Assembly (NCBI GenBank): GCA_013140755.1
Contig: JABFSF010000090.1
Location: 1 to 32,379 of the forward strand
Length of the DNA stretch: 32,379 nucleotides
Direction of reading: 5' to 3'
Source: Methylotenera sp.
Lineage (GTDB): Bacteria > Pseudomonadota > Gammaproteobacteria > Burkholderiales > Methylophilaceae
The stretch's first letter is position 1. The number at the start of each line of letters is the position of its first letter. The notes beneath the pieces are model-generated. The model was not told the DNA's origin. It worked only from the letters and a program-made list of their open reading frames with translations, and did not search any database. Position numbers and translations under genes: made by a program. Shown here piece by piece: positions 20,753-23,700 of this stretch.

Positions 20753-23700
20753 ATGACTATCAAACTAAGCAACAATCCATCTAGCAACGAAATTCGTCAG
20801 GCTTTTTTAAACTTCTTCGCCTCAAAAGGTCATGAAGTGGTCGCCTCTAGCTCATTGGTGCCGCATGGTGACCCTACGCTGCTATTCACCAATGCGGGGA
20901 TGAATCAATTTAAAGACGTATTTCTCGGCTTTGATAAACGCCCTTACACCCGTGCCACCTCAAGCCAAAAATGTGTACGCGCTGGCGGCAAACATAATGA
21001 CCTTGAAAACGTAGGCTACACCGCACGTCATCATACATTTTTTGAAATGCTAGGTAATTTCAGCTTTGGCGATTATTTCAAAGAAGATGCAATTAAATAC
21101 GCTTGGGAATTGCTGACAGACGTATTCAAGCTGCCAAAAGAAAAACTTACTGTGACCGTGTATGCGGAGGATGATGAAGCTTACAACATTTGGCACGATA
21201 AGATTGGCGTGCCCGCTGAACGCATTATTCGCATTGGCGATAACAAAGGCGCACGTTACGCTTCTGACAACTTCTGGATGATGGGCGACACTGGTCCTTG
21301 CGGCCCTTGCACCGAGATTTTTTACGACCATGGCGAACACCATTTTGGCGGCCCGCCAGGTAGCCCAGATGAAGACGGCGACCGTTTTATTGAAATCTGG
21401 AATAACGTATTCATGCAATACAACCGCGATGAAGCGGGCGTGATGCACAAGTTACCTAAGCCTAGCGTGGATACAGGTATGGGTTTGGAGCGAATTGCTG
21501 CGGTATTGCAACACGTACACGCCAATTATGAAATTGATTTATTTGAAAAACTCATCATCGCCGCTGCGCGTGAAACCAACACTTCTGACTTAACTAACCC
21601 AAGCCTAAAAGTGATTGCCGACCATATTCGCGCTTGTAGCTTCTTAATTGCCGATGGCGTGATTTCTGGCAATGAAGGCCGTGGTTATGTGCTGCGCCGT
21701 ATTATCCGCCGCGCAATTCGCCATGGTTACAAGCTAGGCACTCGCGCTGCGTTCTTCCACAAAATTGTGGCTGATTTAGTAGCAGAAATGGGTGGTGCTT
21801 ATCCTGAGTTGGTCAGCAACCAAAGACGTATTACCGACATTCTCAAACAAGAGGAAGAACGTTTCTTTGAAACTATTGAAAATGGTATGGTTATTCTTTT
21901 ATCTGAAATTGATCCTGTATATAAATTTCTATACCGTGCAGGTTCAAGCCCAGGTATTGGGGCAACAGTTTCATCAGAAATTCCTAGTTCAGTACACCCA
22001 AAAAGTGAAGGAGTTTTTTGGGTTTCAGCTAAGCATGATGAAGGTATTTTAGTAACCAAATTATATTCATCCGTATCGGACGCACTGAGAGAAGCTCCGA
22101 GTATCGCCGAAAATTTTTTAAACCGTTTAAAAAATTCATCTATATCCCCAAGTCATGCAAATCTACACATGCAGTTAGCCGTTTATTCTGACAATGACAG
22201 CTCTGCTCAAGACAGACTTGACGCATCGCTAAATAACATAGCTCATCAAATGGGTTCTTCATTGGATGCAAGAATTAACTTTTTCAACTCGAATAAAGAA
22301 TTAAGTGGAGAGTTGGCTTTCAAATTACACGATACTTTTGGCTTCCCTTTAGATTTAACACAAGACATTTGTCGAGAACATAGTTGGAGCGTCGATGCTA
22401 AAGGCTTTGATGCCGCCATGACACGCCAAAAAGAACAAGCCCGTGCCGCTGGTAAGTTCAAAATGGCGACTAACCTTGAGTATGACGGCATTGCGACGAC
22501 TTTCTTTGGTTATGAAACATTAGAAACCGCAGGCCAAATTAGCGCCCTGTATAAAGATGGCGTAGCTGTTACCTCGCTTAATGAAGGCGATTTAGCTGTG
22601 GTGGTATTAAACAACACGCCGTTCTATGCAGAATCTGGCGGCCAAGTAGGTGACTGTGGCGAGCTAAAAGGTAGCAATGGTATTTTTGCTGTGGAAGATA
22701 CGCAGAAAATTCAAGCTAGCGTATTTGGACATCATGGCGTGTTAAAAACAGGCAGCTTACATGTGGGCGACCATATTACGGCACGTGTCAACACACAGGC
22801 GCGTACCAATATCATGCGCAACCACTCCGCCACGCACTTGATGCATAAAGCCTTGCGTGAAGTATTGGGCGAACACGTACAGCAAAAAGGCTCGCTGGTG
22901 GACGCTGATAAAACCCGCTTCGACTTTGTACATAACGCGCCGATGACCGATGATGAAATTGCCAAGGTTGAGCAAATCGTGAATACGGAAATTCTAGCGA
23001 ATGCGGCTTGCCAGGCGCGTGTGATGGATATTGAATCTGCACAAAAAACTGGTGCAATGATGCTGTTTGGCGAGAAATATGGCGATGAAGTCCGTGTGCT
23101 AGATATTGGCTCTTCACGCGAGCTTTGCGGTGGTACGCATGTCAGCCGTACAGGTGATATTGGCTTATTCAAAATCACGAGTGAAGGTGGCGTTGCCGCT
23201 GGTGTGCGCCGTGTGGAAGCCACTACAGGCGTAGGCGCACTCAAGCTGATTAACATGCAACAACAGCTTATTTCTAGTTTATCTAGTGAATTTAAGTCAC
23301 CAGCAAGCGAAGTGTTAAATAAAGTTGCGCAATTGGCAGAACATGCAAAATCGTTAGAAAAAGAACTAGCACGTCTGAAATCCAAACTCGCTTCATCTCA
23401 AGGTGATGATTTGGCTACGCAAGCGGTTGATGTTGCAGGTGTGAAAGTATTGGCAGCCACTCTGGAGGGCGCGGATGCTAATGCTCTGCGCGAAACTATG
23501 GATAAGCTCAAAGATAAACTCAAATCTGCTGCGATTGTATTGGCGAGCGTAAACGATGGCAAAGTGAGCTTGGCTGCTGGTGTTACAAACGATTTGACTA
23601 TGAAACTTAAAGCAGGTGAGCTGGTCAACCACGTGGCATCACAAGTAGGCGGCAAAGGTGGCGGCAAGCCAGATATGGCAATGGCAGGTGGTACAGATGC

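Follow-up and report, generated by a model that had tools for sequence, protein, structure and literature searches.

Segmentally variable genes carry at least 70 residues without detectable similarity between the same conserved blocks, and the inserted domain of ProRS is discussed among them, as outlined in PMC387263. WHO elements of yeast, which PMC7282813 presents as a homing class that dispenses with splicing, act on FBA1, an essential metabolic gene in which one segment has been repeatedly replaced by foreign alleles through asymmetric conversion tracts; a nuclease gene and a gene fragment adjoin the target. In Vibrio, low-GC foreign DNA occupies one housekeeping-gene point in the recA-recX-alaS region as recA islands, one of them of 30 kb with a complete second recA (according to PMC4334540). 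Alanyl-tRNA synthetase (AlaRS) is itself the target of ascamycin, a natural product of Streptomyces that occupies the active site; its producer encodes AcmD, a second and more resistant AlaRS, as an extra copy in the biosynthetic cluster, and the same account names Asp plus Asn as the reader of G3:U70 (PMC12945691).

The window analyzed here is a whole stretch of 32,379 nucleotides from a Methylotenera genome. The alaS gene of the window encodes the longest linker allele seen within its family, with ~125 residues added in frame as a domain. That this insert is a horizontally exchanged, hypervariable AlaRS cassette is well supported. The fuller account, in which a mid-domain site of alaS exchanges in-frame domain alleles and escape may drive the exchange, is in our view somewhat favored as a whole. 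The features considered below are as follows, L009 being the alaS of a second Methylotenera species:

19138..20166, forward strand: recA, neighbor.
20250..20708, forward strand: recX, neighbor.
20753..23761, forward strand: alaS, alanyl-tRNA synthetase with insert, 1002 aa (open frame, Pfam, alignment with E. coli AlaRS).
21890..22387, forward strand: tract common to the window and L009 with low synonymous divergence, residues ~380-545 (sequence comparison).
21911..22291, forward strand: extra residues ~387-513 (127 aa) replacing the native linker, AT-rich and in frame (gap against 3hxu, GC3).
22040..22285, forward strand: best-modelled insert core, residues 430-511, predicted strand-helix-strand-helix-strand (pLDDT block means 58-80).
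22331..22333, forward strand: Asp527 codon, inside the exchanged tract, 14 residues past the insert (3hxu alignment).
23891..25120, forward strand: amino acid kinase with ACT domains (aspartokinase-like), neighbor.

The window protein is a bacterial AlaRS with a class II core, a SAD editing domain and a DHHA1 domain, as identified by Pfam (tRNA-synt_2c, 713.9 bits with a cut-off of 30.3; tRNA_SAD, 59.3 bits with a cut-off of 24; DHHA1, 72.6 bits with a cut-off of 25.9). Residues 10-386 and 515-568 align with E. coli AlaRS (3hxu) in phmmer with a gap between them, which assigns the extra residues to positions ~387-513, outside the catalytic motifs. Measured from RFF[ET]T to AFxLx(D/G)T, the linker has 147 aa in the window versus 23 or 27 aa in standard Methylophilaceae alaS, an excess of 120-124 residues, and the frame stays open throughout. 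Judged from the sequences, the exchange site is shown to be the linker between two helical parts of the tRNA-recognition (mid) domain. Asp527 is presumably the counterpart, in numbering and role, of E. coli AlaRS Asp400, the reader of tRNA(Ala) G3:U70. An earlier note on this DNA had reported an in-frame insertion of about 125 residues and no stop in alaS, and both statements stand. It had also regarded AlaS as length-conserved, which does not hold at this point within Methylophilaceae, where linker length varies. An assembly artefact is an unlikely source of the insert because a separate assembly of another species (L009) has the same block; both proteins are 1002 aa long, with no length difference.

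From the G-M motif on, the insert segment has a GC3 of 0.243, compared with 0.453 in the N part of alaS and 0.417 in the C part. The odd composition and codons extend past the insert to ~22387, in agreement with the AT-rich block of unusual codons that had been described as reaching ~22390. Furthermore, alaS has the largest GC3 drop (100-codon window) among the 17 window ORFs tested. The insert also contains an AT-rich, 12-base perfect inverted repeat with arms 1 base apart (22112-22136). No direct repeats resembling transposon ends were found within 21830-22440.

We searched 187 Methylophilaceae genomes with the insert alone and obtained strong matches in two, that of the window and G145, a Methylotenera metagenome-assembled genome of another species that carries L009 (NZ_JAURYU010000017.1); five further genomes gave weak matches (E 0.015-0.084), which we read as chance. 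This excludes an old lineage feature of most Methylophilaceae, the alternative that the earlier note had set against acquisition. Within the genus, an AlaS match was obtained for 47 of 52 genomes, for 2 of these 47 through the insert, with some of the AlaS genes lacking an insert match split over contigs. A profile of both inserts, searched against 399 genomes of the order, added two weak matches besides its own, again read as chance. Reading both strands placed the weak matches L004, L006, L007 and L042 inside open frames of other proteins (those of L004 and L006 resemble, we assume, HtpG and SecA), and L005, L008 and L041 have stops within the match. The match in L003 (G094, positions 1501-1608, minus strand) covers 36 residues at 33% identity (E 0.015) in a 175-aa frame, which we take to be a SPOR-type membrane protein, and is taken as chance. 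No donor of the window insert was found in phages, plasmids, viral contigs, Pfam, PHROGs, PADLOC or PDB sequences, which weighs against our preferred account.

The window and L009 inserts are 84% identical. Recent gain confined to the window's genome was rejected because the second species has the insert at a dS of ~0.5. We also rejected G811, which has the LTQDICREH tail in common, as the donor lineage: 7 of 9 genomes of its order match, none through the insert. The LTQD(I/V)CREH tail occurs with only short or standard linkers in L114 (G169), L025/L105 (G126) and L046 (G811); such AlaS may be what is left of insert-bearing alleles, or may have served as donors for them.

Comparison of the window with L009 indicates that the insert is constrained. 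Within it, pS is 0.369 and pN 0.084, and the ratio of the corrected values is 0.176 (dN/dS 0.18). Flank pS is 0.668 (residues 1-380) and 0.683 (561-1002). The non-synonymous share of the insert is far below neutral (binomial p 7e-8) and its pS is below that of the flanks (Fisher p 4e-8). Thus, the two surrounding genes had split before the copies of the block did, and the protein sequence of the block is under purifying selection. This selection counts against our preferred account of an exchanged, escape-driven domain allele, since it perhaps reflects merely the need not to disturb AlaRS. It could also be expected of a functional gain, that is, of a tRNA- or partner-binding module altering the charging of tRNA(Ala) or tmRNA, and the location of the insert 14 residues ahead of Asp527 in the tRNA-recognition domain fits such a role. 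This gain is decidedly unlikely, since three observations argue against a single conserved function in binding: only 2 of the 47 matching genomes of the genus align through the insert, the closest relatives of L009 lack it, and unlike sequences fill the same site elsewhere.

The closest relatives of L009 (L015, L016 and L017) carry no insert and allowed us to map the import. Nucleotide identity between L009 and these relatives is 0.90-0.92 over residues 10-330, 0.83-0.89 over 331-360 and 0.895-0.93 over 361-379; it collapses to 0.63-0.64 in the tail (518-545) and recovers to 0.89-0.92 over 546-575 and 0.85-0.89 beyond. L009 and the window have a nucleotide identity of 0.905 in this tail and 0.72-0.83 in other segments. 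Synonymous divergence between L009 and L017 is 0.98 in the tail versus 0.30-0.46 in four other segments, and on its left side the imported tract ends near the insert itself. Most probably, therefore, L009 acquired the insert along with ~90 bases of downstream alaS, the tract that in the window spans 21890..22387. Strict vertical inheritance of the tract in the window and L009 was rejected because it is far closer than the remaining alaS and the closest relatives of L009 are without the insert. Alternatively, L015-L017 may have lost the insert through import of a normal tract. Entry of the block by recombination with flanking alaS sequence is, on these comparisons, well supported. A deliberate recoding of the tail had been suspected from 20 of 20 synonymous differences between L009 and L016; it was rejected because the fraction of changed codons (0.59 and 0.58) lies within the range of other saturated pairs (0.53 +/- 0.11).

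We also identified variable linkers in other Methylophilaceae. When queried with the C-terminal part of AlaS, 167 of 187 family genomes gave a match, and nine genomes with AlaS frames of 912-1013 residues were picked among the matches listed. Inserts are present in three of them (G165, G168 and G163) and ~20 extra residues in G126; the linkers of G052, G178, G179, G049 and G084 are standard. In genus g19, a second genus of the family (15 genomes searched, all 13 with a match read), 6 of 13 have non-standard linkers, with lengths of 130, 104, 84, 44, 41 and 36 residues. Linker GC3 in the six variant alleles measured is 0.19-0.36, below the rest of each gene. L099 (G168, g19), with ~80 extra linker residues, has LHGTFGFP replacing LHDTFGFP, a Gly in place of the Asp that would be expected to read G3:U70.

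A divergence scan of 43 AlaS rows, some picked for their long frames (and with L025 and L105 representing one gene), provided nine close pairs. In the three pairs that include a non-standard linker, divergence peaks strongly over residues 375-435 (means of 0.29-0.44); the six pairs with standard linkers have values of 0.06-0.15 there. Some values weigh against a hotspot at the linker. It is not the sole variable part of alaS: averaged over the close pairs, divergence reaches 0.170 at residues 385-405 and hardly less, 0.169, at 715-735, and L031-L033 peak at 265 (0.42). The synonymous rise in L098-L113 is modest (0.57 vs 0.39 and 0.49), and L037-L038, with normal linkers, have a raised synonymous value in the same region too (0.69). 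Taken together, linker alleles of 23 to 147 residues, AT-rich, differ between close relatives, and divergent flanking alaS codons accompany variant linkers in mapped cases, the pattern that homologous recombination with distant donors should leave. GC3, the divergence of L009 from L015-L017 and the linker scan strongly support the acquisition by transfer or recombination that the earlier note had proposed. Beyond that proposal, the insert site is a hotspot, at which other genomes carry different inserts.

Variation of this kind could also arise if the loop accepts any in-frame DNA and ordinary recombination spreads whatever arrives, without a special driver. We consider this somewhat unlikely. 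The many lengths and unlike sequences in g19 agree with it, as does the location of the loop outside the catalytic motifs, and other parts of alaS also vary between close relatives. The g19 variants include L111 (G162), whose linker contains VRPEPVEGQATHGSTSSPRT, a repeat-like in-frame insertion at the same site. This segment resembles, we presume, a translated dispersed palindromic repeat, and the insertion suggests a site that may tolerate almost anything. The dN/dS of 0.18 in the window insert is harder to reconcile with simple tolerance.

The same site is occupied outside Methylophilaceae. In a class-wide search, 354 of 369 genomes matched and, among the matches listed, G610, of family f89 in another order, aligned through the insert; BLASTP detected no similarity between the window and G610 inserts. 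Eight of 12 f89 genomes matched, and the linker was readable in full in seven genomes, with eight alaS copies altogether. An insert occupies the same site in three of these copies; counted from the G-M motif up to the native block, it has 140, 140 and 130 residues, where a standard f89 copy has ~17; the two Methylotenera inserts, measured from the same motif, are 140 residues each. GC3 is 0.26-0.38 in the f89 inserts, in genes of 0.73-0.77. Three further copies (G942, G943 and G946) lack an insert and have a mid segment with a GC3 of 0.44-0.55; G938 and the second G939 copy have neither insert nor AT-shifted mid segment. The mid segments of L074 and L075 (G943 and G946) differ from those of the other family members (FYKLCGISWDGYFWRMV...DLIADV(V/L)REK), with a GC3 of 0.44-0.47 in genes of 0.73-0.82. 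G939 has two alaS copies in one metagenome-assembled genome (L092 and L093), the insert copy at a contig edge and the other standard, which may reflect a strain mixture or a true duplicate. Elsewhere in the class, long AlaS frames have standard linkers in G814, G649, G881, G743, G853, G658, G929, G850, G728 and G820, and ~20 extra linker residues were found in G914 and G894, among the matches listed.

As in the window, alaS ranks first for intragenic GC3 drop in G948 (38 ORFs), G610 (5), G943 (8), G946 (10), G942 (9) and G939 (3). Weighing against the hotspot, in G145, the genome of L009, alaS is outside the top six drops of 40 ORFs; the strongest there belongs to a 780-codon ORF (L086, 5817-8156), near its 3' end. 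That alaS tops the drop in all six f89 genomes tested counts against a merely tolerant loop, as do the 3 of 8 f89 copies with an AT-shifted mid segment and no insert, which tolerance alone does not predict. Such insert-free segments are compatible with escape or with repair from whatever donor was at hand.

The inserts themselves form no clear sequence family, although some pairs exceed shuffled sequences. The earlier note had recognized no known domain, and the window insert indeed has no significant Pfam, PHROGs or PADLOC match; the same was found for the inserts of G610 and G165 and for the others, a PADLOC Cas12a row for the G939 insert (E 0.007) being taken as chance. The G610 insert has no match in phages, plasmids, viral contigs or PDB sequences and the G165 insert none in phages, viral contigs or PDB sequences, its two weak matches being L106, with a stop, and L107, in another long frame. 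Global shuffling gave z values of 3.8-4.8 for G948-G939, 3.8-4.7 for G939-G168, 2.5-3.9 for G610-G165, 2.2-3.6 for L009-G610 (~0 in local mode) and 1.2-1.3 for window-G610, and values under 2 for most other pairs. The lack of significant similarity among most inserts is what a loop open to any sequence would give; the near-equal lengths of the three f89 and two Methylotenera inserts and the similar strand-helix order, seen by eye among inserts of different lineages, are not.

Structure prediction provided a low-confidence lead. A stand-alone model of the insert, from two sequences, reached a pLDDT of 47; it returned nothing at E <= 0.001 in fold searches and matched RsgI (Z 7.4) and RadC (Z 7.3). 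Modelled with the N half of AlaRS, also from two sequences, the whole model had a pLDDT of 41, with 58-80 in the blocks of residues 431-520. Residues ~379-513 of this second model matched ASFV RPB5 (8q3k_E; Z 8.2, rmsd 3.2, 114 aligned), the YqgP N-domain (6r0j; Z 7.4, 3.6, 111), CdiA-CT (4g6u; Z 6.7, 4.0, 116), N.BspD6I (6qnz; Z 6.5, 3.6, 122), Can2 (8q44; Z 6.2, 3.3, 98), BstEII (Z 5.9), HamA (Z 5.3) and EcoT38I (Z 5.1), which head the non-AlaRS rows, though a Z under 8 may mean just a common arrangement; the same list includes acetyl-CoA carboxylase, VldE and a GRAS complex. We take the matched regions of RPB5, CdiA-CT, N.BspD6I, Can2, BstEII, HamA and EcoT38I to belong to the restriction-endonuclease-like fold class. 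The YqgP domain is likewise described as restriction-endonuclease-like (PMC7231995). The insert may have a restriction-endonuclease-like fold (PD-(D/E)XK, with an alpha-beta-beta-beta-alpha-beta core). A simple pattern check found no (D/E)-X-K, LAGLIDADG, GIY-YIG or HNH motif in the window insert; the L009 insert has one EHK, in a segment modelled as helix in the window, and D/E-X-K motifs occur as EIK in the G939 insert and four times in that of G165.

Such a fold raises the question of homing. The insert could descend from a nuclease-fold domain that cut insert-free alaS; repair from the insert allele would copy the insert and co-convert its flanks, and tolerance of the loop would make splicing unneeded. 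The use of the same site in distant lineages, the co-transfer of flanks, the sporadic distribution and the second-model matches to restriction-endonuclease-like structures (Z 8.2 to 5.1) are all compatible with this descent, and the WHO elements offer an analogy. We nevertheless judge it unlikely: the window insert has none of the nuclease motifs sought, most fold matches fall below Z 8 with other folds listed beside them, the stand-alone model points elsewhere, and both models, each built from two sequences, are of poor overall quality. Furthermore, the flanks are no more recoded than those of other saturated pairs. A broader version, that alaS hosts an unrecognized mobile element in the form of a splicing-free, in-frame nuclease-fold domain copied with its flanks, is highly doubtful; foreign mid segments without an insert would then be escaped or healed alleles and shorter linkers would be remnants. 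An intein or another spliced element has practically negligible probability. An FN-S near the C-terminal border of the insert and a size near that of the smallest inteins would be in keeping with one, but the window insert has no HN-(C/S/T) and no cysteine, no intein family in Pfam matches it, and it sits in a variable linker and not at a conserved motif. The earlier note, too, had seen no intein motifs.

We return to the account in which domain alleles are exchanged at the linker under pressure to escape. The insert probably folds as an alpha/beta unit and would be kept in the enzyme as a surface module beside the reader of the tRNA acceptor stem. Such a module could block a factor directed at AlaRS; alternatively, the change in DNA could remove a target site in alaS, or the domain could itself be a homing element, decayed or active; in mapped cases the exchanged stretch includes the Asp527 region. 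The earlier note had already named a tRNA or partner module, evasion and a selfish element as possible functions, and each of these may still apply. Repeated exchange may, tentatively, be driven by escape from an agent that targets this face of AlaRS or the alaS DNA, for which an inhibitor protein, a toxin or a nuclease recognizing alaS are candidates. Against this, we found no agent targeting AlaRS at the linker; ascamycin, the one AlaRS-directed natural product encountered in the literature, acts at the active site. Among the possible drivers we rank escape first, before tolerance, homing and functional gain, but consider it less probable than not.

Aminoacyl-tRNA synthetases serve as conserved markers, and the exchange of a segment within the gene, at a hotspot in the tRNA-recognition domain, is a warning that trees built from alaS may be chimeric. 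That close relatives differ in their domain-sized inserts points to an agent acting on AlaRS or alaS DNA, or to a new route by which domains spread. Among the papers listed in searches limited to open-licence PMC articles, none was seen to report a hypervariable AlaRS linker.

Two of the systems introduced above provide looser parallels. The alaS tract resembles the Vibrio recA islands in its low-GC foreign DNA, its single point in a housekeeping gene and its recA-recX-alaS surroundings, but it measures 0.5 kb and is in frame (compare PMC4334540). AcmD suggests that an inhibitor can select an AlaRS variant, although in the window it is the housekeeping alaS itself that has changed (compare PMC12945691). 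The likeness to WHO elements extends to a repeatedly replaced segment of an essential metabolic gene, the lack of protein splicing and asymmetric conversion tracts. It does not extend to the layout described in PMC7282813: the extra DNA at alaS sits inside the enzyme, its neighbors are recX and the amino acid kinase, and the window's genome has one alaS match at E <= 1e-50, a threshold at which shorter fragments elsewhere are possible. With at least 70 variable residues between conserved blocks and no clear similarity between members, alaS falls among the segmentally variable genes, although the word 'alanyl' is absent from the main text of PMC387263. The variation outlined there spans wide sets of homologs, whereas at alaS it separates species of one genus and the import could be mapped.
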